Assembly (NCBI GenBank): GCA_937924525.1
Contig: CALDSU010000008.1
Coordinates: 124,001 to 188,000 of the forward strand
Source of the DNA: an uncultured Bryobacteraceae bacterium
Lineage (GTDB): Bacteria; Acidobacteriota; Terriglobia; Bryobacterales; Bryobacteraceae
Reading direction: 5' to 3'
Length of the DNA stretch: 64,000 bases
Notes under the pieces: generated by a model
Seen by the model: only the letters and a program-made list of their open reading frames with translations
Told to the model about the DNA's origin: nothing
The model's database searches: none
Made by a program: the position numbers and the translations under genes
Part shown: positions 801 to 17,963 of the stretch, in pieces
Layout: every line of letters begins with the position of its first letter
How positions within the stretch are numbered: position 1 is the stretch's first letter

Positions 801-1505
801 CTAGCTCAAACCTCCGTCCATCGTCAACACCTGGCCGGTGATGTAGGCGGCGTCGCCGCTGGCCAGGTAGACAGCCGCCCGGGCCACCTGCTTCGCCGTC
901 CCCGGCTGGCCAAGAGGGATTTGCGAGTATAGCTTTTTCCGCGTGTTTTCGTCCATGGAGGACGTCATGTCCGTCTCAATGAATCCGGGCGCGATGGCGT
1001 TCACCCGCACGCCGAACCGCGCCACCTCCCGCGCGAGCGCCTTCGTAAAGCCGATCACGCCCGCCTTGGACGCCGAGTAGTTGGTCTGCCCGGACATGCC
1101 CATGATGCCGCTCACGCTAGTGACGTTGATGACGCACCCCTGGCGGCGCAGGAAGTCTTTGATCAGGACGCGGGTGTAGTTGAACACGCCGGTCAAATTC
1201 GTGTCCAGGACCTCCCGCCACGCCGCGGGATCCATGTTGTAGAGCGCGCTGTCCTTGCGGATGCCCGCGTTGTTCACCAGCACCTGAATCGGGCCCAGCG
1301 CGGCTTCCACTTCCTTGACCACCTGTTGGGCCCGGTCGAAGTCGCGGACGTCGGCCTGGTAACCCGCGGCCCGCTCCTCCAGCGCGCGCGCCGCTTCGAC
1401 GTTGCCCGCGTAGGTGAACGCCACCCGGTAACCTTCAGCGACAAACTCTTCCACGATGGCGCGGCCGATGCCGCGGCTTCCGCCCGTAACCAGCACCACG
1501 CTCAC
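801..1505 (-). CDS. 3-oxoacyl-ACP reductase, FabG-type SDR
   Basis: This is a 234-residue classical short-chain dehydrogenase. The N-terminal TGGSRGIG motif (residues 7-14) binds NAD(P)H, NNAG lies near 78-81, and the catalytic Ser130, Tyr143 and Lys147 (YSASK) are all present. The C-terminus (ITGQVLTMDGGLS) is typical of FabG. The ATG overlaps the stop of the upstream HMG-CoA-reductase-like gene by 4 bases, so the two are translationally coupled. In this cassette it most likely reduces 3-ketoacyl groups on the ACP encoded at 5483-5758, i.e. it is a pathway-specific ketoreductase rather than the housekeeping FabG. No dehydratase or enoyl reductase is visible; these may lie beyond base 1 or be borrowed from primary fatty acid synthesis. 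Confidence 0.88.
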   Translation of the reverse strand: MSVVLVTGGSRGIGRAIVEEFVAEGYRVAFTYAGNVEAARALEERAAGYQADVRDFDRAQQVVKEVEAALGPIQVLVNNAGIRKDSALYNMDPAAWREVLDTNLTGVFNYTRVLIKDFLRRQGCVINVTSVSGIMGMSGQTNYSASKAGVIGFTKALAREVARFGVRVNAIAPGFIETDMTSSMDENTRKKLYSQIPLGQPGTAKQVARAAVYLASGDAAYITGQVLTMDGGLS

Positions 1506-2704
1506 TTCGGCCGGTTCCTCCCGTAATGTTCATGCGCGGCGACGAACTCGCCGGTCGTGATGGCCGCCCCCATCGAAATCTCCCCGCCGAGCACCGCGGC
1601 GGCGACAATTTCGGCGAACTTTTTCGCCTTGCCCGATCCCGCGCACCCCATGATTCCCAGGGCCTCGCGCGGCGTCGGCAACCCGGTGCCGCCGCCCACC
1701 GTGGCCACCGTCAGCGCCGGCAGCGTCAGCGACACGAACAACCCCTCCTCGTGAAGTTCGAAGTACGTGATGCCGCACGCCGCATTCACCACGTTGGCCA
1801 CATCCTGGCCGGTGGCGATAAAGATCGCCGTCAGTCCGTTGGCGTAGTGGGCGTTGTAGCCGACCGCGTTCGCGTGCAGGTGGCCGAGCATCGTCGAGTG
1901 CCACACCTCGAACAGTTGCCGCGCCGTGCAATGGAGGTACAACCGCAGGGCCTCGTGCGTCACCACCGCGCCCGCCGTCACCCGCTTGCCCTTGCCGCGG
2001 GTCAGCAGATACCCAGAGGGGCGTTTCTCTGAGCACATCCCGCTGAAGATGAAATAGCGGATGTGCGGGTAGTTGCGCTCAATCCACCGGCACGCCTGCT
2101 CGGTCGCCTTTACGATCATGTTCATGCCCTGGGCGTCTCCGGTCGCATAGCCGAGATTGACGATCACCTGCCGGCCCATCTGATAACAATGGAGTCCGGT
2201 GAGCCTGCCGTGCCGGGTGGTGGATTCGGCGGCCTCCCGCAGGTGCGGCAACTGCCCGGGCAGCCATTCGGTGAAGTCTCGCGCCGCGTGCACGTCGGTG
2301 AAGAAAAAGGTGGGGGAGATCTGGTTCTCGTCGGCCTGGATGGATACCTGCACGCCGCCGGACTTGCTCAACGCCACCATGCCGCGCTCGTAACTGCGAA
2401 TCAGCGCTCCCTCGGTGGTGGCCATCGGGACGTAGAACAACCCTTGCGCATAGCGCCCCTGCACCAGCACGGGACCGGCGATCCCCATGGGGATCTGGGC
2501 CACGCCGATGGGGTTCTCGATGTTGCCCCGCATTTGCTCCGTGTCCCAGGAGCACGCCCCGACATGCTCGAGCGCCGCGCCGGTCTTCTGTTCCACCCAG
2601 CGGCGGCGGCGCGCCACCCGCTCGGCGTCATAGCCCTGATCTTTCAGCCGGGGCAGCAGATCAGCAGGGCCCAACTCAATGGGCGGTGTGTTAGCGGTCG
2701 CCAC
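1502..2704 (-). CDS. HMG-CoA reductase homologue in a ketosynthase cassette
   Basis: This 400-residue protein starts at a GTG that shares one base with the upstream stop and has GGAAGG 6 bases before it; the frame stays open further upstream but only inside the preceding gene. HMG-CoA reductase signatures occur in order: ENPIG with Glu63, PMGIAGP, ATTEGALI, GYATGDAQGMNM, CSEKRP with Lys227 (CTDKKP in classical enzymes), GQD with Asp301, and the C-terminal HEHYGRNR with His391. All four catalytic positions (Glu, Lys, Asp, His) are therefore filled. The family performs a four-electron reduction of an acyl thioester to an alcohol. The neighbours are ketosynthases, an ACP and a ketoreductase, and no other mevalonate-pathway gene is visible. 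A role in making or releasing the cassette product is therefore as plausible as mevalonate supply; that is inference. Confidence 0.87.
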   Translation of the reverse strand: MATANTPPIELGPADLLPRLKDQGYDAERVARRRRWVEQKTGAALEHVGACSWDTEQMRGNIENPIGVAQIPMGIAGPVLVQGRYAQGLFYVPMATTEGALIRSYERGMVALSKSGGVQVSIQADENQISPTFFFTDVHAARDFTEWLPGQLPHLREAAESTTRHGRLTGLHCYQMGRQVIVNLGYATGDAQGMNMIVKATEQACRWIERNYPHIRYFIFSGMCSEKRPSGYLLTRGKGKRVTAGAVVTHEALRLYLHCTARQLFEVWHSTMLGHLHANAVGYNAHYANGLTAIFIATGQDVANVVNAACGITYFELHEEGLFVSLTLPALTVATVGGGTGLPTPREALGIMGCAGSGKAKKFAEIVAAAVLGGEISMGAAITTGEFVAAHEHYGRNRPK

Positions 2705-2979
2705 TATTTGCCTTCCGTGAATTTCTCGCCTGCGGTCTTGCAGACTTCCATCAGCGAGGCAGCCTTCTCCATCCACACGCCCGCGATGGCTTCGGCCTTC
2801 TTTTGGAGACCTTCCTCCTTGGGCCACGCGAACAGGGGCTGCGCCTCCTTGAACAGGGTCTCGGCCGACTCCACGGGTTTCAGCATCATTTCCAGGCTTT
2901 TGTAGCAGGCGCCCAGATAGATGGCGAAGCCGGTCTGGAGAAACTCCGGCATGATTTTGCGATCAAGTTCGTCGGCCAT
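2704..2979 (-). CDS. Small unknown helical protein of the ketosynthase cassette
   Basis: This 91-residue protein is not one I recognise. It lies 17 bases after the chain-length-factor-like gene and its stop overlaps the GTG of the HMG-CoA-reductase homologue, so it is clearly an operon member. It has no signal peptide and no transmembrane segment. The sequence is rich in Ala, Glu, Lys, Met and Leu and looks like three or four amphipathic helices, with two cysteines (about positions 25 and 80). It could be a small scaffold or carrier-associated protein, or a phasin-like lipid-surface protein, but no motif proves either. A longer reading frame extends upstream through the previous gene, but ATG 2979 is the only start that fits the operon layout. 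Confidence 0.72.
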   Translation of the reverse strand: MADELDRKIMPEFLQTGFAIYLGACYKSLEMMLKPVESAETLFKEAQPLFAWPKEEGLQKKAEAIAGVWMEKAASLMEVCKTAGEKFTEGK

Positions 2980-2996: not shown

Positions 2997-4202
2997 TCAC
3001 ACGGACTTGAGCACGAGCGACGCGTTGTTGCCGTCGCAGCCAAAACAGTTCACCAGCACCGCATGGGCGGAGAAAGGTTGCGCCTGCGCCGACAACCGGA
3101 GCGGCGCGTCCGCGCCGATGAAACCGGCCGTGGGCGGGGCGTGCTGGCGGCGCAGGGCCGTGGCGCCGCACAGCGCCAGCAGCGCGCCGGAAGCGCCCAT
3201 CGCTTCCCCAAACGCAGCCTTCGGCGCGGATACTGGCAACTCGCCCAGCCGCGGCCCGAACACCTCCTTCAGCGCGTGCCATTCCATCTGGTCGGCCGCC
3301 GGACTGCCCGACGCCCCCGCGATCACGCAGCCGATGTCGGCGGGCGTCAGGCCGGCGGCCTCCAGCGCCTGCCGCATCGCCGCCGCCGCTCCCTGCCCGC
3401 GCACGTGGAACGCGTTGATGGCGTGCGCGTCGTGCGCCGAACCAAAACCGGCGATCTCAAACAGCGGCGTCACGCCGCGCGCCCGCGCGCGCTCCTCGGT
3501 TTCCACCACCAGCAGCGCCGAACCCTCCCCCAGCACCATGCCGTCATGTCCGGCTTGAAACGGCCGCGACCGCCCGGAAGCGGAGAGTACACCGGCTTTC
3601 CGGAATCCCACGAACGATTCCTCGCACAGTTCCTCCACGCCGCCGGCCAGCAACGCCGAGGCGCGGCCGAACCGGAGAAACTCCGCCGCATAGTGAATCG
3701 CGTACAGTCCTGAGGCCAGCCCGGCGGAGATGGTCGAGTTCACTCCGCGCAGCTTGAACTTGATGGCCGCCTGCCCCGCCGGCGAATTGATCACCGTGTT
3801 GGGGAATTCCATCGGGTTGACATACTTCACGCCGTCGGTCTGCCCGCTCCAGTCGAAAGACGTGATGCTGTGCACGGAGCCGAACATGGTGCCGCACACC
3901 AGGCCGAACTGCGGATCTCCTTCGGCGTTCTCCGGCTGCTTAAGCCCGGTGGCGGACAAGGCCATTTCCGCCGCCACGCACAACAGCCGCGCGGCGCGGT
4001 CCAGCACCCGAATCCCTTTGGTTCCCAGCCAGGTTTGCGGCACAAAATCGCGCACTTCGGCCGTGATGGCCTCTTCGCCGAACATCTGGCTCGGCCCGAT
4101 CCCGGCGCATCCGGCGTAAAGGTTGTCCTCGAACTGTTCCCGGCCGGCCCCGATCGTGGAAATCACGCCCACGCCGGTGGCCACGATCCGCGGCGCAGTC
4201 AT
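2997..4202 (-). CDS. Chain-length-factor-like inactive ketosynthase (KS-beta)
   Basis: This 401-residue protein has the thiolase-type KAS II fold over its full length (start RIVATGVGVIST, end LVNCFGCDGNNASLVL). All three catalytic residues are replaced: the nucleophilic Cys is Leu162 (SAGLASG), the first His lies in a GASGSP segment without histidine, and the second His is Glu (AFGEAMG). This pattern is that of chain-length factors, which pair with an active KS and set chain length. The start codon overlaps the stop of the active KS gene by 4 bases (ATGA), the usual arrangement for KS-alpha/KS-beta partners. I infer a heterodimer with the 4199-5422 product that elongates a chain on the nearby ACP. 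Confidence 0.85.
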   Translation of the reverse strand: MTAPRIVATGVGVISTIGAGREQFEDNLYAGCAGIGPSQMFGEEAITAEVRDFVPQTWLGTKGIRVLDRAARLLCVAAEMALSATGLKQPENAEGDPQFGLVCGTMFGSVHSITSFDWSGQTDGVKYVNPMEFPNTVINSPAGQAAIKFKLRGVNSTISAGLASGLYAIHYAAEFLRFGRASALLAGGVEELCEESFVGFRKAGVLSASGRSRPFQAGHDGMVLGEGSALLVVETEERARARGVTPLFEIAGFGSAHDAHAINAFHVRGQGAAAAMRQALEAAGLTPADIGCVIAGASGSPAADQMEWHALKEVFGPRLGELPVSAPKAAFGEAMGASGALLALCGATALRRQHAPPTAGFIGADAPLRLSAQAQPFSAHAVLVNCFGCDGNNASLVLKSV

Positions 4203-5422
4203 GCCGCCTCCTCAAAGCGCGCCAGACACAGGGATGCGTTGTTGCCCCCGAACGCGTAGGCGTTATTGAGCACCAGCCGCGGATTGGTCTGCCGGGCGGT
4301 GTTGGGCACGTAGTCCAGATCCGCGTCCGGGTCGGGTTCCGTGAAATTGATGGTCGGCGGGATGACGCCCGTGTGCAGCGCCAGGGCGCAGGCCACCGCC
4401 TCGATCGCGCTGGCCGCCCCCATCGTGTGGCCGAGCATCGACTTGATGGAGCTCATCGGCACCTGCGGCGCGCGGCGGCCAAACAAGGTCTTAACTGCGA
4501 TCGTCTCGACGCGGTCGTTGGTCGGCGTTCCGGTCCCATGCGCGCTGATGTAATCCACCTCATCGGGCGAACGGCCGGACTCCCTCAGCGCCATGTCCAT
4601 CGCGCGGATTGCGCCGTCCCCCTGCGGATGCGCCGCGGTCATGTGATGCGAATCGCAGCTCACGCCGTAGCCCAGCACCTCCGCGTAGATCCGCGCGCCG
4701 CGGGCCAAGGCGGCCTCCAGCGGTTCCAGCACCAGCACTGCCGCGCCCTCGCCGGGCACCATCCCTTTGCGATTCCTGTCAAAAGGCTGGCATTTCTCGG
4801 GCGCGATCGCGCCCAAACGCGCGAACCCGGTGTAGGTGATGCGCGAGAAGGGATCCGCGCCCCCCGCCAGCATCAGGTCCGCGCGCCCGGTCCGGATGAG
4901 ATCAAACCCGTAACCGATCGCGTAGTTGCCCGCGGCGCACGCGGTGGGGATCATCAGGCAGGGACCCTGCAACCCCAGTTCGATGGCGACGTTGCTGGGA
5001 ATCACATTACACGGGTATTTGGCGCCCAGATCCGCCGGCAGCGCGTCGAGCCCCTCGGCTTTACGGATGTCGTTGTACTTCTCCACAAACCCCGGCTCGC
5101 CGGAGGTGGTGCCCATCGAGATCCCCACGCGCCGCGGCGCAAAGGCGGACAGGCTCAAACCGGCGTCGTCGAGCGCCATCCGGGCCGCCGCGATCGCCAA
5201 CTGCGATCCTCGCCCCATGCTCTCCGGGTCGCGGTTGCGCACCCAGTGCGCCGGATCGAACGCCTTGACCTCCGCGCCGATGTGCACCGGATAATCGGAG
5301 GTATCGAACGAGCGCACCGGCGCAATCCCGCTCTGGCCGGCCACCAGGCTGCGCCAGAACTCTTCCCGCCCGGCGCCGACCGGCGTAATCAGGCCAGCCC
5401 CCGTGATCACTACTCGCTTCAT
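4199..5422 (-). CDS. Beta-ketoacyl-ACP synthase, FabF-like, catalytic subunit (KS-alpha)
   Basis: This 407-residue protein carries the complete Cys-His-His triad of decarboxylative ketosynthases: Cys162 in PTACAAGN, His295 in SAHGTGTP and His332 in SMLGHTMG, with the C-terminal FGGNNASL loop. Start ATG 5422 has GGAAGGAG 5 bases upstream; an upstream in-frame ATG at 5458 adds 12 residues without family similarity. It follows the ACP gene by 60 bases and overlaps the KS-beta gene by 4. It condenses acyl and malonyl units carried on ACP. Pairing with an inactive partner, plus a dedicated ACP and ketoreductase, marks a type II polyketide/specialised fatty acid assembly system rather than housekeeping FabF. 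Confidence 0.9.
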   Translation of the reverse strand: MKRVVITGAGLITPVGAGREEFWRSLVAGQSGIAPVRSFDTSDYPVHIGAEVKAFDPAHWVRNRDPESMGRGSQLAIAAARMALDDAGLSLSAFAPRRVGISMGTTSGEPGFVEKYNDIRKAEGLDALPADLGAKYPCNVIPSNVAIELGLQGPCLMIPTACAAGNYAIGYGFDLIRTGRADLMLAGGADPFSRITYTGFARLGAIAPEKCQPFDRNRKGMVPGEGAAVLVLEPLEAALARGARIYAEVLGYGVSCDSHHMTAAHPQGDGAIRAMDMALRESGRSPDEVDYISAHGTGTPTNDRVETIAVKTLFGRRAPQVPMSSIKSMLGHTMGAASAIEAVACALALHTGVIPPTINFTEPDPDADLDYVPNTARQTNPRLVLNNAYAFGGNNASLCLARFEEAA

Positions 5423-5482: not shown

Positions 5483-5758
5483 TTACGCGCGCACCGCGGT
5501 GCCCGCCGCCTCCAGATGACGTTGCACCACTTCCACCGTATCGTTCACGTTCCTGATCTGCGAGAACTCGTCCTCGGGAATGTTGATCTTATACTTCTTG
5601 TCCACCGCCACCATGACTTCCATCGCCATGAGCGAGTCCACCCCCAGGTCGTCCTGAAAACTGGCGGTATCCTCGATCTCCTCCGGGGTGCGCTCGGTCA
5701 CCTCCGCGATCAGCCGCTTGATCTCGCCGCGAATCTCGTCTGTTGTAATCGCTTCCAC
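5483..5758 (-). CDS. Acyl carrier protein
   Basis: This is a 91-residue acidic protein of the ACP fold. The phosphopantetheine attachment serine is Ser42 in LGVDSLMAME, preceded by the usual DDLG and followed by the helix II segment VAVDKKYKINIPEDE. I chose GTG 5758 because residues from there match a normal ACP length and GGAGG lies about 11 bases upstream; the frame is open upstream to 5914 but that part overlaps the patatin gene. It follows the patatin gene by 47 bases and precedes the KS-alpha gene. It should carry the growing chain for the ketosynthase pair and needs a phosphopantetheinyl transferase from elsewhere. Confidence 0.87.
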   Translation of the reverse strand: MEAITTDEIRGEIKRLIAEVTERTPEEIEDTASFQDDLGVDSLMAMEVMVAVDKKYKINIPEDEFSQIRNVNDTVEVVQRHLEAAGTAVRA

Positions 5759-5805
5759 TGCTTTCTTTTCCTCCGTTCCGGGCGTCCCCGTGACGCCCGC
5801 CTTGC

Positions 5806-7632
5806 TTACAGCCGTTCCGCCGGTTGCCGCCGCTCGACCGCGGCGCCGGCTTTCACGCGCTGATATCCCTCCAGAATAACCGGCAGGTTCATCTCCGCTA
5901 CCCGCCGCCCGCACTCGATGATCTCCGGCGCCCGCGCGAACTGAAGCATCGTAATGGTACCGTAATCGGGCGTCAACACGAAATTCGCCGCGTCTTCCGC
6001 CCGCGCCTGCCCGATCTCGTGGCCCATGATCCGCGTGCAGCGGAACATCAGGTCGAAGGCGTTGAACGGATAGCGGGAACTGATTTCCTGCGCCTCCATG
6101 GCCGCCATCGCGTTGACGGCGACGATGAACCGCGCGCCCATCCTCCGGACCAGACGGACGGGCACCGGGTTCATGATGCCGGAATCCACCAGCAAGACGT
6201 CGCCGCGCTTGAACGGCGGCATCAGCCCGGGCAGCGCGATCGAAGCGCGCACGCAGTGGGTGACGGGACCGTCGCGGATCGTGAACTCCTTGCCGGTCTT
6301 GATGTCGACCGCATTCGCCCAGTAAGGAATTTCCAGCTGGTTCACCGTCCGGGCGCCCCAGTACCGCTCAAAGGTCTTCAACACGATGGCTTCGTTGAGC
6401 AGGCACATCCGCCAGAACCGCCATTCGATAAAGCGGCGCGTGCGCGTCTTCCAGTAATCGGCGATTTCCTGCAAGTCGGGGATCGCAATCCCCGCGGCCC
6501 GCAGCGCGCCGATTACACTACCCATGGAGCAGCCCGCGATGACATCGATCGGCAGTCCGGCCTTCTCAAAGACGGAGAGGACGCCGATGTGCGCCCAGCC
6601 CCAGGCCGCCCCGCCCCCCAGCGCGATGCCCACTTGAGTGCCCAGGATATGGCGGGCCAGCGAGTCCACGCTCCGGCGAAAGCGCGCCGTCACCGGCCGT
6701 CCGGCGCGGAACGCCGTTTCCGATTCGGCGGCGTCAAAGATCAACTGGCGGCCGCCGTCGAGCACGGGAAGCGTAGGGGCCTCGCCGCTTTGGGCCACAA
6801 ACCGCCCGGATCCGCTATCGGCGGCAAGCGCGTCCCCCGGACCGGCCAGCCAGCCCCGCATCACGTCGGGAGCGTTCGCCTGGGCCAGCGCGGCGGCCAC
6901 TTCCCGCACCGCCGGCGCCGACGGCAGGGGATTCAGAATCACAAACGGGAAACGCGCCTTCCACTCCGTCAGCCGGCGCGCCAGTTCTTCGCGCATCTCC
7001 CCTGCCGAGCCCCGGAGGCCTAGATCGACCGCGTAGGACTGCGGGGAGAGCAGGCGCTCGGCCCCTTCACCGCTTTCGGCCAGATGCACGCACAGCGCGG
7101 CTTCTCCGGACTGTTCCGCCAGCGAAAGCGCCAGCAGGCTCCCAAACGCGTACGGCGCTGCCCAGTGCGGCTGACTTTCCAGCACCACCACCGGAGACAC
7201 CTTCGCCTTGGCGCCGCCGGTCACCGTGGAATGCATCCGGTCCGCGATCACTTCCAGCAGTCCGCGCAGAATCGTCTCGCGGTTCTGGGGCAGCCGCACC
7301 GAGGCTTCCTTGGTCAGGACGAGCACCTCCGCGTCGACCACCACCTCGACGTCCGCCGAACAGGTTTTGCCGGTCACGAACGACAGCTCGCCAAACAGGT
7401 CGGGTGGCTGCAAATACGCCACCGTTTCCCGGGAATCGGCGCGTTCGACGCGCACCGCGCAGCGGCCGGAGCGCAGGAAGTACACCGCCTGGCTGCGGCC
7501 GCCCTGCTCCAGGATCTTGGCGCCCGCCGGATAGCGCCGCTCCTCGAACAACGCCGCAATTCTCTCGAGTTCGCCGGCCGGGACGCCGCGAAAGACGGGG
7601 GACGTCGAGAGAAACGCCACGCGGTCCTGCAT
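5806..7632 (-). CDS. cNMP-binding-domain patatin-like phospholipase (NTE family)
   Basis: This 608-residue protein has three parts. Residues about 10-125 are a cyclic-nucleotide-binding/Crp-type beta barrel (ILEQGGRSQAVYFLRSG, LFGELSFVTG). Residues about 140-300 are a linker domain. Residues about 330-590 are a patatin-like hydrolase with oxyanion loop GIALGGGAAWG, nucleophile Ser369 in GCSMG, and Asp483 in VDSG (usually DGG). The layout matches neuropathy-target-esterase and YchK/RssA-type lysophospholipases. It starts 3 bases after the stop of an FG-GAP/ASPIC gene and is followed by the ACP gene, so it bridges the two halves of the operon. No signal peptide is seen, so it probably acts on the cytoplasmic face of the membrane. 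A role in lipid release or remodelling is an inference. Confidence 0.88.
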   Translation of the reverse strand: MQDRVAFLSTSPVFRGVPAGELERIAALFEERRYPAGAKILEQGGRSQAVYFLRSGRCAVRVERADSRETVAYLQPPDLFGELSFVTGKTCSADVEVVVDAEVLVLTKEASVRLPQNRETILRGLLEVIADRMHSTVTGGAKAKVSPVVVLESQPHWAAPYAFGSLLALSLAEQSGEAALCVHLAESGEGAERLLSPQSYAVDLGLRGSAGEMREELARRLTEWKARFPFVILNPLPSAPAVREVAAALAQANAPDVMRGWLAGPGDALAADSGSGRFVAQSGEAPTLPVLDGGRQLIFDAAESETAFRAGRPVTARFRRSVDSLARHILGTQVGIALGGGAAWGWAHIGVLSVFEKAGLPIDVIAGCSMGSVIGALRAAGIAIPDLQEIADYWKTRTRRFIEWRFWRMCLLNEAIVLKTFERYWGARTVNQLEIPYWANAVDIKTGKEFTIRDGPVTHCVRASIALPGLMPPFKRGDVLLVDSGIMNPVPVRLVRRMGARFIVAVNAMAAMEAQEISSRYPFNAFDLMFRCTRIMGHEIGQARAEDAANFVLTPDYGTITMLQFARAPEIIECGRRVAEMNLPVILEGYQRVKAGAAVERRQPAERL

Positions 7633-7635
7633 GGT

Positions 7636-9330
7636 TTAACGGGCCGGTCCGGCCTTGGCGATGATGCCTGTTCCTTCCTCCACCGTGATGAATTGGTTGG
7701 CGGCGATGTTCGTCAGGGTTTGCTTGGCGCCGCTGGGCCATTCGATGTCCAGCTTGGTTACGGTGGGATCGCTTCCCAAGCCGAACGTCAGCGCCAGGTC
7801 GCTCTGCGAACAGTAACTGGAGCCGCTCCGCACCGTGTTCCACTGCCGCCCGGACGCGCTCTCCAGCCGGACGGTCGCGCCGATGGCGCTCTTGTTCGAC
7901 TTGGTCCCTACCAGCTTGAGGCATAAGAACCGGTTCTTGTTTCCGCCGTCGTTCCGGTACAGATACGCCGGCCCGTGATTGGACGTGATCAGCAGGTCCA
8001 GGTCCCCGTCGCGGTCAATATCGGCATACGCCGCGCCGCGCGCGACGATCGGCCGGCTGAGTTCCGCGCCCACCTTGGCCGTGGTCTCTTCGAATTTGCG
8101 CTTGCCCAGATTGCGGAACAGGTGCGGCGGCTCTTTGTAGGAAACCTTGGGCTGGACGCGCCCGATCTCCTCCTCAATGTGGCCGTTGGCCGCGAAGATG
8201 TCCAGATAGCCGTCCAGGTCGTAGTCCCAGAAGAACACCGCGAACGCCAGCGTCAGCAGGCTGGCGCGCCCCACCGCCGAGGTAGGCGCCTCGTCGACAA
8301 ACAGGCCCGTGCCCTCGTTGTGATACAGCCCCAGCATCTGGTTGGAGAAGTTGCCCACGATCAGGTGCGGGCGTCCCGAGCGGTCGTAATCGCCGAAGTC
8401 AACGCCCATCGCGCCGCGGGCGACGCCGTCTTCGCCGAACGCCACCCCCGCCACCATGCCTTCTTCCGTAAACGTGCCGTTCTTGTTGTTCCGGTACAGT
8501 TTATTGGGCTGCGTGTCGTTAGCCACGAACAAATCGGGCCAGCCGTCGCCGTTGTAGTCGAACACCACCACGCCGAGCGACTTGCTGGTCGGATCGCCCA
8601 AGCCAGCTTTTTCGCTGACGTCCTCGAACTTGCCGCCCAGGTTCCGGTAAAGTTTGGACTGCGTTCCCTTATACGACTCGGGCGTGCAATACGACTTGGT
8701 CGCCCCGTCCAGCGAGCACCACAGGTCGCCCTTCGCGGTCCACTGGACGTAGTTGGCGACAAACAGGTCGAGTTTGCCGTCGCGGTCGTAATCCAGCCAT
8801 GCCGCGGACGTGCCAAAGTTGGCGTTGCTGATCCCGACTGCCTTGGTGACATCCCGGAACTTGCCGCCGCCCTCGTTGCGGAACAGGCGGTCGCCTTCCA
8901 GGGCCGTGATATAGAGATCGTCCTTGCCGTCGTTGTCGTAATCGCCGGCCGCCACCCCCAGGCCATACATCTCCACATCCAGGCCGCTGCCCGCTGTGAT
9001 ATTGGTGAAAGTGCCGTTCTTGTTATTGCGGTAGAGCGCGTGGAGGGACTTGCGCCCGCGCGGCGTCCAGTCCTTGCTATTTACCAGGATGATGTCCGGC
9101 CAGCCGTCCTGGTCGGCATCGAAGAAGGCGCCGCCCGACCCCAAAGTTTCGGGCAGCCATTTCTTCCCCGCCTTGCCGCTGTTGTGGGTGAACTTGATTC
9201 CCGCCGCGGCAGTGATGTCGGTAAACTTCACCGGCACGGCGGGTCCGGGCGCCACGCTGGCCACCGCCCACGCGATGCCCGCCGCACCCAGCGCCCACGA
9301 CGCGGATGAACTGAACCGGGTCAACTTCAC
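7636..9330 (-). CDS. FG-GAP/VCBS repeat protein with ASPIC/UnbV domain (CRTAC1-like)
   Basis: This 564-residue exported protein starts at GTG 9330, overlapping the cytochrome gene stop by 4 bases (GTGA). A hydrophobic N-terminus (about residues 10-30) looks like a signal peptide. It is followed by repeats built on the calcium-loop pattern DxDxDGxxD (for example DADQDGWPD, DYDNDGKDD, DYDRDGKLD, DYNGDGWPD) separated by LYRNNKNGTF-type strands, as in integrin-like beta propellers. The last 100 residues match ASPIC/UnbV (NKSAIGATVRL, then IEWPSGAKQTL). The family is common in Acidobacteria and Planctomycetes, and its biochemical role is mostly unknown. It is the fourth FG-GAP/ASPIC protein in this operon and the only one downstream of the cytochrome gene. 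Confidence 0.9.
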   Translation of the reverse strand: MKLTRFSSSASWALGAAGIAWAVASVAPGPAVPVKFTDITAAAGIKFTHNSGKAGKKWLPETLGSGGAFFDADQDGWPDIILVNSKDWTPRGRKSLHALYRNNKNGTFTNITAGSGLDVEMYGLGVAAGDYDNDGKDDLYITALEGDRLFRNEGGGKFRDVTKAVGISNANFGTSAAWLDYDRDGKLDLFVANYVQWTAKGDLWCSLDGATKSYCTPESYKGTQSKLYRNLGGKFEDVSEKAGLGDPTSKSLGVVVFDYNGDGWPDLFVANDTQPNKLYRNNKNGTFTEEGMVAGVAFGEDGVARGAMGVDFGDYDRSGRPHLIVGNFSNQMLGLYHNEGTGLFVDEAPTSAVGRASLLTLAFAVFFWDYDLDGYLDIFAANGHIEEEIGRVQPKVSYKEPPHLFRNLGKRKFEETTAKVGAELSRPIVARGAAYADIDRDGDLDLLITSNHGPAYLYRNDGGNKNRFLCLKLVGTKSNKSAIGATVRLESASGRQWNTVRSGSSYCSQSDLALTFGLGSDPTVTKLDIEWPSGAKQTLTNIAANQFITVEEGTGIIAKAGPAR

Positions 9331-12248
9331 GCTCCTCCTCCTGCTCCCAGCGCGCCAGGCGCGGGCTCCGCCTGCGCGGCCCGGACCGGGGCCGGCTTTC
9401 GCGCCTGCCCGGCCGTCATCCGCCGCGCCGCCGGTTTCGCGACCGGCTCCTCCAGCGGCACACTGTCGTGGTCGTGAATCTGTTGCCGCTCATTATTATC
9501 TTCCGGGCTGACCAGGCGCCGCTTCGCCGTGATCGTCTGCGAAGCCTCGTCCGCTTTGAACCGCCGGAACAGTTTTTCTTCCCGCGCCGCGTTCTCCTGG
9601 TCGCCCAAACCGCGATAACACAGCATGGCGGTGTAGTGCATTTGCAGATCTTCGGGATCGATCAGACACACCTGCTGCAGCACGTCCAGCGCGGCCCGAT
9701 ACTCGCGCTTCAGGAACAGAATCCGCGCCTTCTGATTCAAAACCACCCGATCCCGCGGATACTTCGCCAGCACCTTGCTCAACGATTCGAGCGCCGCATC
9801 GTAATCCCCATCGGACCGCTCGATCATCGCTTTAAAGAAGTGGATCCGCCCCAGCGAGGCATCGATGTCCAGCGCCTTCTGGATGAAGGGCTTCGCCGCG
9901 TCCGTCTCTCCCTCCTGGATCAACGCGCGCGCCACGTTCAACCATCCGTCGGCGTAACCCGGTTCCGCCTCGGTGACGCGCTGGAACGCGTATTCGGCGC
10001 CCTTCAGATCTCCCTGCAACAGCAAGCCGATGCCCCAATCGTTCCACCGTTCCCGGTCCTTCGCGGTCACCGCCGGCTTCCAATCCGGCGTCCCGACCTC
10101 GAGCGTCGCTTGCGCCTCGGCCAGGGTGGTGATGGGCAACACCGGAATCTCGCCTTTGATCAGCCCGGACACATTGGCCGGAATATTGGCCTTGTCAAAC
10201 GAATACTCGAGGCTGTTGTGCGCAGCGCTCAGCAGCGACGGATCCTGACCCGGCTTCGGTTCGCCGGCATAGGAGAACTGCGTGTAGTAGTGGGAGAACT
10301 TGCGGTGATTCAGCTTGGCCGTCAGGGTAATCGGTCCCCGCACGCCCTTGGGAATGCGCAACCGGTAATGCGCCACATCCGCCGCGCCCGGCGGAATCAG
10401 CCGCACGTACAGCACGGTCCGCATCTGCCAGGCATTGCGCTTGTTGATGGGATTGCCATCCCCATCAATCTGTAGCGCCTTGTAGAAGTGCGCTCCGGGC
10501 TCTACTGGCCCCTTCCCCTCGTCTTCGACGCGCCCGCTCCAGAAGATCGGTTTCCCGTTCGCATCCTTGGCGATCAGTTCGAGCCAGATGTCAAAGGCGT
10601 CCACCGTTCCGCCCGGAAAGAAGTGACCGATCTTGCGCGTCCGCACCACCACGTCGACTCGCACGGTGGAGCCCGGCTCCACCTTGGCGCGCGCGGTGTC
10701 GATGGGAGCGGCGATCTTCCCCACCTCCCGGATGATCACCTGGCCCGACTGTTCCGCTTCCTCGCCCACCGCAAAACTCGTGGCCAACTGCGGCACTTCG
10801 CCGGACCGCCGGACCATCTGCGTTTCATGGGCGCTCTCCTCGAGCGGAGACACCGAAAAGATATCGACGGTGATGAAACCCGATTTCAGGAACCGCTCGA
10901 CGGCGCCCAGTTGCGCCTGGTCGCGGTTCACATGGGGCAGCGCCGTATTGGCGCCCGGGAATCGGTGGGAATGGACCTGCCCGTTGATGTTGCCGGGGTC
11001 GCGCGACGGCACCAGCGGCATATGGCAGTCAGCGCAATCCATCGGTTCCTTGGGATAGTAAAACGAACGCGCCCCCTGCCCGGAGACGCCGCTGGCCTGC
11101 CAGTTGTCGTAATCGTTAAAGCCGCGCATCCACCGGTAGTCATTCACCGGGACATCCAGGTGCACCTTGTGGCACGCGGAGCAATACTCCGCCGTGTCCT
11201 GCCGCATGAACGGCTTCATGAACGTGCGCTTGTGCGGTTGCGGCTCGGCGAACGTCAGGAAGCGGTCCACGGCCCGGATGAACTTGTTCTTGCTGGTGGC
11301 CAGCTCGTGCAACGGGGGATATTCAATCAGGAAATTGCCGTTCCCCATGCTGGAAGACACGTGCACGATCGAGTGGCACGAGGTGCATGCCAGGCCCGCG
11401 TGCGCCTCGGGCGTGTCGATCTGTTCCTTGATGGGCCTCTCGAAACGGCCGTTGAAGAACACCGCGTGGTCGTGGCAGCCGGCGCACCATTTGCTGGGTT
11501 GCGTGCCGACCACGTCCTGCATGTACTCGATGGATTTCCGGTAGAACTGGTTGTTGAACGACGCGAAGTGGTGCGCCGAACCCTTCCACTGCTCGTAAAT
11601 GTCCTTGTGGCATTCGCCGCAGGCTTCCGAGTCCATGAAGAAATTCGACGGGATGATGCCGTTGACGTTCGTGTTCGCCGACGAGGGAAAGAAGGGCGAT
11701 TTCGGTCCCGCGCCCTCCTCTTCCATGCTGGTGGGAACCACCAGCGGATTCCTGATGCGGTCCCACCGGTCGGGGAACACCTTGCGGTATATCTCCGCCG
11801 TCACCGGCCAGATCACCAACAGCGCCGCGGACGCCTGGAACGCCTTCTGGAATCGCCGCCAGCCGCCGCCCTCGGCACGCGCTTTCCGCCAGACGTAGGG
11901 AACCAGCAGCGCCACGCCCAGCGCCGCAAACACGATGTGCGACCAAAAAGCCCAGCGGTTTTGCATCAGGTTGCCCGCGCCCGGGATGTAGGCTCCCAGG
12001 CACAGAAAGACGCCCAGGCCCAGCGCAATCACCAACGCCCCCGCCGCCCGGGCGACGCCTTCCCGCAGCTCGGCGTCCTTCAGGGCCAACCAGATCAGCA
12101 CGCCAAACAGGACACTCCCCAATCCTATGTGAACCATCACATTGGTCATGTAGAAAATGGTTGGCTCCGCGAACGCCGCCAGATAGGCGGTGTTCACCAG
12201 CAGCACCACGAAGAAGATCGCAACCAGTTTAGGCAGTTTGGTCGACAT
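9327..12248 (-). CDS. Membrane-anchored pentaheme cytochrome c with C-terminal TPRs
   Basis: This 973-residue protein has a distinctive architecture. About five hydrophobic helices occupy residues 7-155. A periplasmic heme domain follows with five CxxCH sites at about Cys210 (CGECH), 255 (CAGCH), 288 (CTSCH), 356 (CSACH) and 405 (CADCH), with extra histidines between them as possible distal ligands; this resembles the cytochrome c554 group. A beta-rich region without a recognised family spans about 480-720, and three or four TPRs lie at about 750-915, with a Pro/Ala-rich tail. It is probably a membrane-to-periplasm electron-transfer protein that docks partners through its TPRs. It lies 15 bases after the TPR/VCBS gene and overlaps the next FG-GAP gene by 4 bases, so electron transfer and FG-GAP proteins are made together. 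Donor and acceptor are unknown. Confidence 0.9.
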   Translation of the reverse strand: MSTKLPKLVAIFFVVLLVNTAYLAAFAEPTIFYMTNVMVHIGLGSVLFGVLIWLALKDAELREGVARAAGALVIALGLGVFLCLGAYIPGAGNLMQNRWAFWSHIVFAALGVALLVPYVWRKARAEGGGWRRFQKAFQASAALLVIWPVTAEIYRKVFPDRWDRIRNPLVVPTSMEEEGAGPKSPFFPSSANTNVNGIIPSNFFMDSEACGECHKDIYEQWKGSAHHFASFNNQFYRKSIEYMQDVVGTQPSKWCAGCHDHAVFFNGRFERPIKEQIDTPEAHAGLACTSCHSIVHVSSSMGNGNFLIEYPPLHELATSKNKFIRAVDRFLTFAEPQPHKRTFMKPFMRQDTAEYCSACHKVHLDVPVNDYRWMRGFNDYDNWQASGVSGQGARSFYYPKEPMDCADCHMPLVPSRDPGNINGQVHSHRFPGANTALPHVNRDQAQLGAVERFLKSGFITVDIFSVSPLEESAHETQMVRRSGEVPQLATSFAVGEEAEQSGQVIIREVGKIAAPIDTARAKVEPGSTVRVDVVVRTRKIGHFFPGGTVDAFDIWLELIAKDANGKPIFWSGRVEDEGKGPVEPGAHFYKALQIDGDGNPINKRNAWQMRTVLYVRLIPPGAADVAHYRLRIPKGVRGPITLTAKLNHRKFSHYYTQFSYAGEPKPGQDPSLLSAAHNSLEYSFDKANIPANVSGLIKGEIPVLPITTLAEAQATLEVGTPDWKPAVTAKDRERWNDWGIGLLLQGDLKGAEYAFQRVTEAEPGYADGWLNVARALIQEGETDAAKPFIQKALDIDASLGRIHFFKAMIERSDGDYDAALESLSKVLAKYPRDRVVLNQKARILFLKREYRAALDVLQQVCLIDPEDLQMHYTAMLCYRGLGDQENAAREEKLFRRFKADEASQTITAKRRLVSPEDNNERQQIHDHDSVPLEEPVAKPAARRMTAGQARKPAPVRAAQAEPAPGALGAGGGA

Positions 12249-12263
12249 GGCTATCTTTCGACT

Positions 12264-15200
12264 CTAGCGGCGGCCTGCGACCTCCCTCAATACTCGAAAT
12301 CTATTAGGGCTCCGGCCCTCCGACATGGGCCGGAGCAGGCGCAGAGCCGGGCGGGTGGTGTACTCCCGCTGCAGGCGGCTTTCCGGAAAGCGCTCCGACG
12401 CCGGGTAGGGGTAACGCGACATCCCATGAAAAGGCAGCGGTCCCACCGTCTGCGAGTGCGCGGTGTTGGCGTCTCCATCTTTGGCCCACCCGTCCACCAT
12501 CAGCAGAAAATCGCGCCGCCAGCCCTTGGGCAGAGCCGGCAAAGCCTCCGCGTCGAAGCGCAGCCGCAACTCATCGCCTGAACCCATGATCAGCAGGTTG
12601 TCGTCAATGTGCTCGAGCAGGGGCAGCACCGGCCCGTACCGGGTGTACAAACCGGGCGTCGGGTTCCACATCGAGGTGGACGACACTTGCCCGTAGACGA
12701 AGGATTCGGGCTGCTTCCGCTCGGGATGGATGACGGCGCGGGAGAAGCCGCGGAACCGCAGTTCCGCGTCCCGCGCAGCCAGGTCGGTCAGCCGGACGGG
12801 CGGCGCCCCGGGATCTTCCCCGAGGAAGATCTCATCCCAATAGACGCAAAGATTCGTCACGATGCGCACGCGCCGGTCCGCCGTAAGGAACTTGCCGGTC
12901 AAGTCGACCGCAATGGTCTTTGGTTTCCCTGCGGGAATCCCCAGATCTTCGATGACCGTCTGCCACTCTCCCCGGGCGTTCTTCACCTGCAAAGACGGCA
13001 TCAGCAGCCCTTCGCGCGAGGACTGCGCCACCCCCAAAAAGGTGCTGCCGTCCGCCCAGTCCACCCAACCGGAAAGGATCAGCACAGCGCGGTTGTCCGG
13101 CGCCGCCTGGCCGAAATCGAGTTCCAGCGTTTGCCGTTCGGCCACCCCGGCGTAGTCGCGCTGGAATTGGTCGGGATACCACTGGTCCAGCCGGGTGAGT
13201 CGGTCCAGCACGTCCACCGGCTGGCCGAGCGAACGGCTGCTCAGCCGCGCGGCCACCGGGTAGCGGCGCTCCTTGACTCCGTACAGACGAAATTCCGGAA
13301 ACGGCGGGGCTTTGAACTTATCGTTGGTGTAGATGCTGGTGTCCGCCGGATGGTCCACGGCGATCAGGCGGACGTGGTCCAGATAGGCCACTTCGCGCAA
13401 TTCCTCGGTGATCCGGATCTCAAAGCGGCCGTCGGCCGGGGCAAGCGATTCCCCCCGGATCTGCACATATTCGTCGTGATCCACCGGGAAGAACTCCCCG
13501 TCGCCCGCGCTGGCGCCCAGCGGCGCCACGCCCAGCACGTCGGTGATGAATTCGAACTCACGGCCGTTCCAGGTGAAGATCATCGGGCAGGAACCCGACA
13601 GGCGCTGCGCCTCTTTGTAGGCCAGCGTCTTGCCTGCCGGCTGCCTGGTTTCGTTCTGAATCAGCCCGTTAGGCCACGTGATCCGAACCGTGTCGGCCTG
13701 GTTGCTTCCCCGCAAACCAAAGACCAGGGGAAGCCCGTGATACACCCGCTTCTGATACAGCGAACCCGCTTTGACTTCCACTTCCGCGCCGGGCGCCAGT
13801 TTCAGGTTCTTCACGCCCGTCAGCGCGACCCTCATCCACTGGTGAGAGGTATCGGTCTCGTTGCGCAGCATCCGGATGTTGCTGGCCGCCGAGGCCAGGT
13901 CCTCTCGCCCGTCACCGTCGAAATCCGCGGTGGCCAGGGCCGCCGCTTTCGGCACGGCGGTGGCCGAGATCTCGAACTTGCCCTGCCCCAGGTTGCGAAA
14001 CACTTTGCCGGATGCCACCAGGTCGGCAAAGCCGCGGCTTTCCAGGTCGGCGAACACGACCGGCGCCGAAGCGTCCAGCTTCGCGCTGGCTTGCAGCTTG
14101 CCGTCATGGTTGACCGCCACCACGACGCCTTGCGATCCCGCCAAGGCCAAGTCCATCCAGCCGTCGTTGTTGACGTCGAACGGCGCGGCCTGCGTCATGC
14201 CGGACGGCAAGGCGTCCAGGGGCACGGCTTCAAACTTGGCGAGGAGACGGTCACGGTAGAGCACCGGCGGCCGGTCCTGATAGGTCACCACCACGTCGGT
14301 GCCGATCGTGTCGGCGATCAGCTCGAAAATCGCCCCGTGCGTCGCCGCGCCCTTCACGAAGGGGAATGTCGCCGTCTCGTCGGAAAAGCCCTCCGCGCCG
14401 TGGTTGCGGAGGAGGCGGGAGTCCTCCCCCAGGAGCAGCAGGTCGAGGTCGTAGTCGTGATCGTAGTCCACCCACAGCGCCGCCCGGTACCGCCCCGCGG
14501 GCAGTTCCGCGGCGTGCCGGGCGAACTTGCCCTTCTGATTCTGGTAAAGCGCCGCGCCGGCCGCGGACACGACGGCCAGGTCGGGGAGCCCGTCGTTGTC
14601 AAAATCGCCTGCCGCAAGGTGCACGGCGCCCTTGATCCCACCCAGTCCGGACGCCGCGACGGGTTTCTTGCCGCCCTCCAGCAGGGTGACTCCCTCGGCG
14701 GACCACGCCACCAGGTCGGCCCGCCCCGTGCCGGACGCGTCCAGCGCCGCCAGGCCCGCAGCCTGCACCGCGACTTCACTGGCCGCCAGCTGGACAGCCG
14801 CCGCCGGACCCGCGGCGGGCAGCGGTTCGATGGGATCCATGATCTCGGAGTAGAAACTCCACTCCATGTCCTCCGGCACGGCGGCTCCCTGGGTTTTCTG
14901 CTTGATCGCCTGGAACGTCTTCAGCTCGCGCGAGGCATCCTCGCCGCGGCCGGCCTGGCGGTAGGCGTTGTAAAGCTGGAAATGGGGCCCGGCGAGGTTG
15001 GGGTCCAGTCGCGCCGCCGTTTCAAACTCCTTCAGCGAGTCCTCCGCACGGCCGGCGAGCTTGTACAGCACGCCCAGGTTATAGTGCGTCACCGGTTCGT
15101 CCGGAACCAGCTTGGCCATCTGTTCCAACTGCACGATGGCCTTTTCGTACTCCGATTCCTTTTTGTAGACGATCCCCAGGTTGAACCACGTGTGCGGAAT

Positions 15201-15503
15201 CGAGGGATCCTGCTTCTGGGCTTTCTCAATTTCGGCAACGCCTTCCTGGGTCTTGCCGGCGCGGAGCAGCGCCAGGCCGTAGTTGAGCCGTTCGCGCGCG
15301 GAATCCGGCCGCAGCTCCAGCGCTTTCCTGAACTCATCGACGGCCTGCAACTGCGTGGTGGGATTCTCGTAGAACGCCTTGCCGAGATTCCGGAGATGCC
15401 ACAGCCGATCTTCGCTCGACGCGCCGGATTCCGCCGCCCGCACCAGCAGGATCGCGGTCAGGACGACGACGCCGCCCGAAGCTAGGTACAGAATCCTCCT
15501 CAT
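12264..15503 (-). CDS. TPR and FG-GAP/VCBS repeat protein with large unassigned C-terminal domain
   Basis: This 1079-residue protein begins with a single hydrophobic segment (residues 5-24; signal peptide or anchor). Residues about 30-190 form four to five TPRs (ALELRPDSARERLNYGLAL, HTWFNLGIVY, VTHYNLGVLY). Residues about 230-550 hold degenerate VCBS/FG-GAP blades (DFDNDGLPD, DYDHDYDLD, DVNNDGWMD, DFDGDGRED). Residues about 560-620 resemble a UnbV segment (VRITWPNG). The remaining roughly 440 residues begin with CPMIFTWNGREFEFITD and belong to no family I can name; they look beta-rich. It lies 37 bases after one FG-GAP gene and 15 before the cytochrome gene. It is probably a large cell-envelope scaffold of the same apparatus. 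Confidence 0.85.
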   Translation of the reverse strand: MRRILYLASGGVVVLTAILLVRAAESGASSEDRLWHLRNLGKAFYENPTTQLQAVDEFRKALELRPDSARERLNYGLALLRAGKTQEGVAEIEKAQKQDPSIPHTWFNLGIVYKKESEYEKAIVQLEQMAKLVPDEPVTHYNLGVLYKLAGRAEDSLKEFETAARLDPNLAGPHFQLYNAYRQAGRGEDASRELKTFQAIKQKTQGAAVPEDMEWSFYSEIMDPIEPLPAAGPAAAVQLAASEVAVQAAGLAALDASGTGRADLVAWSAEGVTLLEGGKKPVAASGLGGIKGAVHLAAGDFDNDGLPDLAVVSAAGAALYQNQKGKFARHAAELPAGRYRAALWVDYDHDYDLDLLLLGEDSRLLRNHGAEGFSDETATFPFVKGAATHGAIFELIADTIGTDVVVTYQDRPPVLYRDRLLAKFEAVPLDALPSGMTQAAPFDVNNDGWMDLALAGSQGVVVAVNHDGKLQASAKLDASAPVVFADLESRGFADLVASGKVFRNLGQGKFEISATAVPKAAALATADFDGDGREDLASAASNIRMLRNETDTSHQWMRVALTGVKNLKLAPGAEVEVKAGSLYQKRVYHGLPLVFGLRGSNQADTVRITWPNGLIQNETRQPAGKTLAYKEAQRLSGSCPMIFTWNGREFEFITDVLGVAPLGASAGDGEFFPVDHDEYVQIRGESLAPADGRFEIRITEELREVAYLDHVRLIAVDHPADTSIYTNDKFKAPPFPEFRLYGVKERRYPVAARLSSRSLGQPVDVLDRLTRLDQWYPDQFQRDYAGVAERQTLELDFGQAAPDNRAVLILSGWVDWADGSTFLGVAQSSREGLLMPSLQVKNARGEWQTVIEDLGIPAGKPKTIAVDLTGKFLTADRRVRIVTNLCVYWDEIFLGEDPGAPPVRLTDLAARDAELRFRGFSRAVIHPERKQPESFVYGQVSSTSMWNPTPGLYTRYGPVLPLLEHIDDNLLIMGSGDELRLRFDAEALPALPKGWRRDFLLMVDGWAKDGDANTAHSQTVGPLPFHGMSRYPYPASERFPESRLQREYTTRPALRLLRPMSEGRSPNRFRVLREVAGRR

Positions 15504-15540
15504 ACGTTTGGTGCTCCCCGTGGCCCCGATGCTTGCGAGC

Positions 15541-17265: not shown

Positions 17266-17963
17266 TGGTCCTCCCACAACTCGTGCAGATTCGTGTCCAC
17301 CCGCTTGTTGGGATCCAGCGTTTCATCGATGTATTTGGCCAGTTCTTCCCCGCTCCGCGAGAGCCGGTCTTTCAGCCGGGGCTCGTTCGGAAACAGCTTG
17401 GCCCCTTCCTGCCACACCGCCCGGGCCTTTTCAAGATCGTCCATCTTCCAGTAGCCGTCTCCCAGGGAAATGTAGGCGCGCACATGATACGAGCGAAGCT
17501 TGTCCTGCTTCTGCATCTTCATGGCTTCCTCCAGGTCCTTGACCCCCAGCGGCGCCTTGCCGAAGATTTTCGGCCAGTACAAGTAGCTGTTGCCGCGCGT
17601 GTAGAGCGCGATCCAGGAAGGTCTCAATTCAATTGACTTGCTGAAGTGCGAAAGCGCGGTATTGGCCAGAATCACCTGGGTGATGGCCCCGGCGTCGGGA
17701 ATCTTGTCGACGTAGGCAAAGCCGTAGTTGAGGTATGCATTCGCGGCCTGCGGGCTCTTGGCCACGAGTTCCTCGAAAAACTTGATGCAGCGGTCGTACT
17801 GCTTGAGCTGAATCACCGCCTGCCGGTACTCGCTCCCCGCCCGAAGGTCGTCGGCGTTCTTGGCTAAGGCTGCCTCGTACCGGTCCAGGTCGGCCAGCGT
17901 CGCTCCCGACGCGCCCACACCCGCGAGCGCCCACGCACATACCAGAAGTCTTGCCTGTCTCAT
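17262..17963 (-). CDS. Exported TPR protein
   Basis: This 233-residue protein has an N-terminal signal peptide (RLLVCAWALAGVGASGA, about residues 4-21) and three or four TPR-like helical hairpins. The clearest are AANAYLNYGFAYVDKI, ALSHFSKSIELRPSWIALYTRGNSYLY and SYHVRAYISLGDGYWKMDDLEKARAVW. It sits between two FG-GAP/ASPIC genes and overlaps each by about 4 bases, so it is translated with both. TPR domains mediate protein-protein contacts. I infer a periplasmic adaptor that organises the FG-GAP proteins or connects them to the TPRs of the cytochrome and the 1079-residue protein. Confidence 0.85.
   Translation of the reverse strand: MRQARLLVCAWALAGVGASGATLADLDRYEAALAKNADDLRAGSEYRQAVIQLKQYDRCIKFFEELVAKSPQAANAYLNYGFAYVDKIPDAGAITQVILANTALSHFSKSIELRPSWIALYTRGNSYLYWPKIFGKAPLGVKDLEEAMKMQKQDKLRSYHVRAYISLGDGYWKMDDLEKARAVWQEGAKLFPNEPRLKDRLSRSGEELAKYIDETLDPNKRVDTNLHELWEDQ

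Follow-up and report, generated by a model that had tools for sequence, protein, structure and literature searches.

The 64,000-nucleotide stretch of DNA analyzed here (the window) belongs to an uncultured Bryobacteraceae bacterium [GCA_937924525.1, contig CALDSU010000008.1, positions 124,001–188,000 of the forward strand]. Near its beginning it carries a gene for a protein with the class I fold of 3-hydroxy-3-methylglutaryl-CoA (HMG-CoA) reductase (HMGR), and this gene is linked to a conserved cassette encoding an acyl carrier protein (ACP), two ketosynthases (KS-alpha and the non-canonical KS-beta) and a CrtI-like flavoprotein. HMG-CoA reductase serves isoprenoid and sterol supply and also mevalonate breakdown. 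The protein described here is, with a somewhat better than even chance, a dedicated class I HMGR paralog outside the mevalonate pathway that would release a carrier-bound chain reductively as an alcohol. Both the fold and the type of cassette are known. In a literature search that left out subscription journals and preprints we found no report of their combination, and no paper on HMGR together with ladderane gene clusters, with the mevalonate pathway of Acidobacteria or with KS/ACP gene clusters in Acidobacteria.

Fold and Catalytic Residues of the HMGR-Like Protein

An HMGR homolog at 1502–2704 had been noticed in a first-pass annotation of the window, and family models bear this out. The minus-strand open reading frame (ORF) encodes 400 residues, of which 30–396 are covered by PF00368 (model positions 2–368 of 368) at 369.5 bits. 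The curated cut-off is 27 bits, so the protein belongs to the class I HMGR family, and with an E-value of 2.3e-110 the match is not a chance one. The AlphaFold model, with a mean predicted local distance difference test score (pLDDT) of 81, superimposes on human class I HMGR 1dqa (Z 40.6, root-mean-square deviation (rmsd) 2.8, 340 residues aligned) and on the archaeal enzyme 6hr7 from Methanothermococcus (Z 40.5, rmsd 2.7, 330 aligned).

The catalytic residues are Glu98 (codon 2413..2411, minus strand), Lys227 (2026..2024), Asp301 (1804..1802) and His391 (1534..1532), the human counterpart of the latter presumably being His866. Lys, Asp and His had been named correctly from the start, and the altered Lys motif SEKRPSG is indeed present in the sequence. 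Glu63 had been mistaken for the catalytic Glu: it lies in the motif ENPIG and aligns with human Glu528, while Glu98 (ATTEG) aligns with human Glu559; both positions are invariant in all 60 sequences compared below. Most of the DAxGMNM stretch, which we take to be the NADPH site, is kept. The equivalog model TIGR00533 gives the protein 333.4 bits, below its cut-off of 441.8, while the one canonical acidobacterial copy scored (L056) passes it at 450.5 bits. Human residue numbers were counted from Glu559 along the alignment and agree with the residues named in PMC9500038.

Linkage to a Ketosynthase Cassette

The ketosynthases, ACP and FabG reported next to the gene in the first pass were all recovered by family scans. 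The KS pair has the arrangement of the KS and chain-length factor (CLF) of type II polyketide synthases (PKS), since a KS-alpha with the set Cys162-His295-Lys327-His332 adjoins a Cys-less KS-beta, in which Leu, Gly, Lys and Glu occupy the same places. Across 45 KS-beta rows, the window row included, the catalytic Cys is found in one, and His332 is replaced by Glu in 42, as in chain-length factors.

To follow this arrangement in other bacteria, named genomes were scanned with an alignment of the HMGR clade that includes the window protein (clade a, see below). In total 67 loci were revealed, 65 of which were assigned to clade a; most come from Acidobacteriota. The other host labels (Poribacteria, Zixiibacteria, Planctomycetota, Verrucomicrobia, Latescibacterota, Deltaproteobacteria and Cyanobacteria) account for one or two loci each, and some of them may be binning errors, because 66 of the 67 titles refer to metagenome-assembled genomes.

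As a rule, the cassette accompanies the HMGR gene. KS-alpha and KS-beta are located within 3.6 kb upstream in 39 and ACP in 37 of the 43 clade-a loci with more than 3.6 kb of upstream DNA. More than 4 kb of downstream DNA is available in 51 loci; a CrtI-like gene follows HMGR at a distance of up to about 4 kb in 46 of them, and FabG lies downstream of HMGR in 15. In a sample of the phylum (297 Acidobacteriota genomes, 48 with an HMGR match), KS-alpha of the cassette kind was found in all seven clade-a genomes.

Related KS genes were also revealed in genomes with no HMGR match. Genome G008 has a cassette-type KS-alpha, the contig of which breaks off within KS-beta, and G257, G169 and G215 contain more distant KS pairs (KS-alpha identity 52–53%). 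The KS locus of G257 includes a FabZ-like gene (PF07977), those of G169 and G215 include a gene that looks FabZ-like by eye, and FabG matches among these three were obtained only in G257 and G169. The idea that HMGR replaces FabZ as a dehydratase was dropped for lack of a chemical basis.

Altered Substrate Pocket

Residues were counted in 60 rows, comprising the window and 59 of the 65 clade-a loci. Six loci (L104, L125, L128, L129, L130, L131) were excluded because they were fragmentary or gave split matches; L132 and L133, which fall outside the group, did not enter the counts, and L132 was retained as an additional sequence in the tree. All 60 rows share the four catalytic residues, Glu, Lys, Asp and His, as well as Asn289.

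According to the accessible text of PMC9500038, Lys735 is salt-bridged to the HMG-moiety carboxylate in a statin complex, where conserved polar contacts are made by Arg590, Ser684, Asp690, Lys691, Lys692 and Asn755. In clade a the position of Arg590 is never Arg (Ile129 in the window; Val, Ile, Thr, Leu or Gly overall), and that of Lys735, which is Ser270 in the window, is Lys in one row and Arg in nine. Asp690 is replaced by Glu in 60 of 60 rows, and Lys692 corresponds to Arg in 51, Lys in five and His in four. Asn567, which we assume to lie near CoA as part of the CoA site, is likewise replaced by Glu throughout, and the cis loop is one residue shorter in the alignment. Arg590, Asp690, Lys692 and Lys735 are all kept in the nine sequences of the canonical clade c, whereas in clade b Arg590, Asp690 and Lys692 are retained and Lys735 is replaced by Val or Ile (22 of 22 in each case). 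Judged from these alignments, clade a has an altered substrate pocket with intact catalytic residues.

Selection was estimated from the ratio of nonsynonymous to synonymous substitution rates (dN/dS). Fifteen gene pairs were tried and eight computed, six being of unequal length and one lacking a KS match; the HMGR values of 0.019–0.039 in three computable pairs indicate purifying selection.

Phylogeny and the Mevalonate Pathway

In the phylum sample, clade a consists of the window genome and six others at 55–68% identity to the window protein; matches of clade b show 43–47% and those of clade c 36–41% identity. A tree was computed by maximum likelihood from 94 rows (60 from clade a, 22 from b, nine from c and three others). 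It contains 22 of 24 matches of the 43–47% class, nine of 20 of the 36–41% class and the outlier L032, and omits three weak matches (28–30%) and a short fragment from G017. Each of the three clades split off, with support of 100/98 (a), 100/99 (b) and 100/99 (c), although the bootstrap had not fully settled. The archaeal 6hr7 was placed beside clade c. The outlier, at L032:1366–2643 in genome G286, is a lone long-branched HMGR outside all three clades.

Clade c is the mevalonate type: genes for isopentenyl diphosphate (IPP) isomerase 2, a mevalonate-kinase-like protein and a decarboxylase surround HMGR in all nine loci read, and family models confirmed one each of the decarboxylase, kinase, IPP isomerase 2 and isopentenyl phosphate kinase. 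Three genomes (G015, G246 and G238) contain both a clade-a copy and a canonical clade-c copy.

Clade b (L011–L031, L042, L050 and L052, 22 rows used) is a second non-canonical clade. It resembles the window protein in that its one scored member also falls short of the TIGR00533 cut-off (350.9 bits) and in the absence of Lys735, but differs from it by an N-terminal PF25653 domain (in the two members scanned), by keeping Arg590 and the DKK motif, and by its neighbors, an ABC1/UbiB-like gene being found in five of 14 loci.

The window genome is 99.3% complete and has a single HMGR together with DXR and IspH of the methylerythritol phosphate (MEP) pathway. No match to HMG-CoA synthase (PF01154) or diphosphomevalonate decarboxylase (TIGR01240) was obtained anywhere in it, and its best match to mevalonate kinase (TIGR00549) scored 49 bits, where the cut-off is 163. 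The kinase beside one canonical acidobacterial HMGR, at 138 bits, is also under this cut-off but far above 49. The scanned neighbors of the HMGR-like gene include no mevalonate gene, as had been thought. PF01154 is an imperfect marker: genome G338 (the genome of L119) has a canonical mevalonate-type operon (L062) that includes isopentenyl phosphate kinase, and DXR is also present there, yet PF01154 finds no match.

Among 49 host genomes, taken from 50 loci, DXR exceeded its cut-off in 35 (three via partial matches only) and HMG-CoA synthase in nine, with two more below the cut-off. DXR without an over-cut-off synthase was found in 32 genomes, the reverse in six, both in three and neither in eight.

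In summary of this comparison, the window protein shares with class I HMGRs (PF00368, TIGR00533; 1dqa, 6hr7) the fold and the catalytic Glu-Lys-Asp-His, and differs from them in its TIGR00533 score below cut-off, its separate clade, the loss of Arg590 and Lys735, and the lack of any mevalonate pathway found in its genome. Two outcomes had been named in the first-pass annotation as speaking for an ordinary enzyme, namely clustering with genuine HMGRs and a complete mevalonate pathway elsewhere in the genome. Both were looked for; the protein groups apart from the HMGRs of mevalonate operons, and the genome has DXR and IspH, with no match to HMG-CoA synthase or the decarboxylase and only matches below the cut-off to mevalonate kinase.

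Proposed Role and Alternatives

The cassette comprises ACP, KS-alpha, KS-beta, HMGR, the CrtI-like flavoprotein and often an acyltransferase. The KS pair may build a chain on ACP; the HMGR-like enzyme would then reduce the carrier thioester twice with NADPH, in a four-electron reaction via a bound aldehyde. The chain would thereby leave as a primary alcohol and might be processed further by the flavoprotein and the acyltransferase. NADPH-dependent four-electron release is the simplest reading because the catalytic residues are kept, the HMG contacts are changed and ACP and KS genes adjoin. An ACP-bound chain is suggested as the substrate by the genomic context. Reductive chain release had been proposed on first reading; cassette linkage, lost HMG contacts and intact catalytic residues fit it, while from these data we infer, rather than observe, thioester reduction, an ACP-bound substrate, a product that is an alcohol and not an aldehyde, and a chain of the polyene type.

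The same annotation had assumed that no thioesterase is present. This agrees with the scanned cassette proteins, among which no thioesterase family turned up; a protein with a patatin-like esterase domain is, however, encoded just upstream (5806..7632). Thioester reductase (R) domains and fatty acyl-CoA/ACP reductases also perform NADPH-dependent reductive release and have a Rossmann fold of the short-chain dehydrogenase/reductase (SDR) type; they would do the same job as the window protein by a different fold. Neither R-domain nor fatty acyl reductase families turned up among the cassette proteins scanned.

Several observations weigh against alcohol release. Residues 51–70 of the AlphaFold model have low confidence, so that space for a long chain cannot be read from it. 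The position of Lys692 stays basic and may therefore leave room for some carboxylate-bearing substrate. HMG-CoA synthase over the cut-off without DXR was found in six of the 49 host genomes, among which the genome of L095 alone was seen to contain a canonical HMGR as well. The KS pair is missing upstream in four of the 43 loci (L100, L109, L113, L121), and five of the 51 lack a close downstream CrtI-like gene (L090, L094, L102, L110, L131). In one genome of the phylum sample, G238, the KS pair and HMGR are located on different contigs. It should be mentioned that in L090 the CrtI-like gene sits about 8 kb further on, and that in L109, which has no KS match, an ACP gene (PF00550; L109:9556–9834) directly precedes HMGR.

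An enzyme that performs a two-electron step only, either releasing an aldehyde or acting as a beta-ketoreductase in place of FabG on the growing chain, seems to us rather unlikely. The presence of FabG downstream in just 15 of 51 loci would suit it, as would the aldehyde-reduction step of HMGR chemistry, which uses the same Lys according to the accessible part of PMC9500038. However, FabG is also present in the window and its close relatives. The catalytic His of HMGR protonates the leaving thiol, and all four residues of thioester reduction are invariant in the 60 rows.

Less likely still is the reduction of a short or dicarboxylic acyl thioester to an unusual starter unit rather than of a finished chain. 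HMGR pockets are small and closed, and a basic residue at the Lys692 position in 60 of 60 rows would be compatible with such a substrate, but two usual HMG contacts are gone with Arg590 and Lys735, and no starter-making gene was recognized among the recurrent neighbors.

We regard it as very improbable that the protein is a genuine HMG-CoA reductase making mevalonate, for example from the HMG-CoA that arises in leucine breakdown. Its fold and catalytic residues are those of the genuine enzyme, and HMG-CoA synthase exceeds the cut-off in nine of 49 hosts. Nevertheless, this candidate was rejected on the tree, where the protein falls in a clade of its own, on the lost pocket contacts, on the TIGR00533 score, which the canonical copy passes, and on genome content, no mevalonate genes having been found; moreover, G015, G246 and G238 carry a canonical copy besides the clade-a one. 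That the gene is decayed or misplaced and has no function is scarcely credible: nothing was found in favor of it, the catalytic residues do not vary in any of the 60 rows, dN/dS is low in three pairs, and the cassette is conserved across loci that bear the labels of several phyla.

If reductive release as an alcohol is right, the HMGR fold would gain a second job, and type II fatty acid and polyketide pathways would gain a release mechanism.

Comparison With Ladderane and Polyene Clusters

The genes kuste3603–3608 of Kuenenia constitute the proposed ladderane cluster of anammox bacteria (PMC4790861; PMC2649909, accessible parts). The window cassette is a relative of this cluster: both bring together ACP, KS, a non-canonical KS and a CrtI-like flavoprotein. 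The gene list in the accessible part of PMC4790861 names both FabZ and a radical SAM enzyme but lacks HMGR. Unlike it, the window together with the adjoining locus L002, which extends past the window edge, has HMGR and FabG, and gave no tblastn match to FabZ or the ladderane radical SAM enzyme at E 1e-4. Among the 67 loci, FabZ was found in one (L085) and the radical SAM enzyme in none. Expression of kuste3603–3608 genes in E. coli yielded no ladderanes, and the CrtI-like enzymes made no lycopene; the chemistry of the cluster is unsolved in the accessible text of both papers (PMC4790861; PMC2649909). Because the cassettes are related, knowing the product released by the HMGR-containing one would inform the roles of the shared KS pair and CrtI-like enzyme. 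Outside anammox bacteria, ladderane-type clusters were called in soil Verrucomicrobia, according to the accessible part of PMC7298704.

In a sample of 392 Planctomycetota genomes, 40 had a match to KS-alpha with an E-value of 1e-110 or lower, and ten neighborhoods were read. Nine of them contained FabZ-like, KS-alpha, second KS, CrtI-like and radical SAM/B12 genes, with HMGR absent within 20 kb; the radical SAM, CrtI-like, KS and FabZ domains were checked against Pfam in one of the nine (L190). The tenth, in the genome of L117, contained HMGR and gave no FabZ or radical SAM match. The window KS-alpha is 53–58% identical to those of the nine clusters, and its CrtI-like flavoprotein is 31% identical (256 bits) to the counterpart in L190. 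In a quick KS-alpha tree, made without bootstrap and with long branches, HMGR cassettes and Planctomycetota FabZ cassettes fell on two sides (SH-like approximate likelihood ratio test values 90 and 92).

The best sequence match of KS-alpha in the PDB was 9s5h_B (547 bits), followed by 6kxd (369 bits). Entry 9s5h, on which no paper was found in our literature search, probably comes from an anammox bacterium, judging by 95% identity to a Planctomycetota genome. The model of KS-alpha matched 6kxd best among the 50 VIA-align matches listed (Z 62.8, rmsd 1.9, 394 aligned), 9s5h not being listed; such a fold match does not separate KS/CLF from FabF, because the ordinary FabF 1j3n differs by less than one Z unit. 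The ishigamide KS/CLF 6kxd, from a polyene type II PKS akin to those of aryl polyenes, is like the window in having a heterodimer-type KS pair. To our knowledge, polyene type II PKS clusters (ishigamide, aryl polyene) contain neither HMGR nor a CrtI-like gene.

Halogenase-Like and RPE65-Type Genes

Halogenase-like genes were revealed in 14 and RPE65-type genes in 12 of the 67 loci. Together with the CrtI-like gene, their presence in part of the loci suggests that the chain may be unsaturated. One can speculate that the cassette makes retinoid-like polyene alcohols by a polyketide route, an idea that we hold to be doubtful. Here the KS pair would make a polyene on ACP, the HMGR paralog would free the polyenol and the acyltransferase would esterify it; the CrtI/carotene-isomerase-like flavoprotein might alter double bonds, and the RPE65-type oxygenase and halogenase-like flavoprotein might cleave or isomerize the polyenol.

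The window genome has a second locus with overlapping genes for a halogenase-like flavoprotein and an RPE65-type carotenoid oxygenase (L200:7464–10552; G000:C4:37463–40551). It is far from the cassette, while elsewhere such pairs adjoin KS or HMGR. The halogenase-like protein is 49% identical to that of L155 and 27% to that of L123, and the RPE65-type protein 46–48% identical to those of L102 and L155.

Organization of the Window Operon and Its Surroundings

The features at the beginning of the window are listed in Table 1. KS-alpha and KS-beta overlap at ATGA, and 13 bases separate FabG from the CrtI-like gene. The 91-residue protein matched no family, and nothing in the PDB matched it with an E-value better than 1; it has matches in four of the 67 loci, one of these away from HMGR.

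Table 1. Genes of the HMGR-containing cassette and its upstream neighbors in the window
Feature	Position	Strand	Remarks
CrtI-like FAD oxidoreductase (start), 521 aa	2..787	minus	whole gene L002:17222–18787 (minus), past the window edge
FabG-like 3-oxoacyl-ACP reductase, 234 aa	801..1505	minus	start overlaps HMGR stop (GTGA)
HMG-CoA-reductase-like protein P0001, 400 aa	2704..1502	minus	GTG start; PF00368, residue alignment, fold match
Small protein, 91 aa, no family found	2704..2979	minus	stop overlaps HMGR start by one base (TAGTG)
KS-beta / chain-length-factor-like	2997..4202	minus	active-site Cys replaced by Leu, both His lost
KS-alpha (FabF-like)	4199..5422	minus	Cys162, His295, Lys327, His332
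Acyl carrier protein	5483..5914	minus	domain at residues 64–129 of longest ORF; start uncertain
cNMP-binding domain fused to patatin-like phospholipase	5806..7632	minus	upstream neighbor
FG-GAP / UnbV_ASPIC repeat protein	7636..9330	minus	upstream neighbor
Cytochrome c554-type protein with TPR	9327..12248	minus	upstream neighbor

Past the window edge, the rest of the CrtI-like gene is accompanied by genes for a TetR-type regulator, an acyltransferase, two ABC1/UbiB-like proteins, a small protein and two SRPBCC proteins. The N-terminal part of the acyltransferase resembles SDR proteins by eye only and matches no Pfam family. The two ABC1/UbiB-like proteins, the small protein (phasin-like by eye) and the two Polyketide_cyc (SRPBCC) proteins are encoded at L002:10049–15030, downstream of the cassette; UbiB-like matches occur in 16 of the 67 loci.

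Upstream, matches to the patatin-like protein, some of them weak, were found in seven of the 67 loci. The minus strand at 7636–17277 encodes FG-GAP/UnbV_ASPIC repeat proteins and the cytochrome c554-type TPR protein. In L067–L072, where HMGR is 71–78% identical to that of the window, the 7636..9330 protein is also encoded upstream of the cassette (76–85% identity), and the 9327..12248 protein is 68–72% identical.

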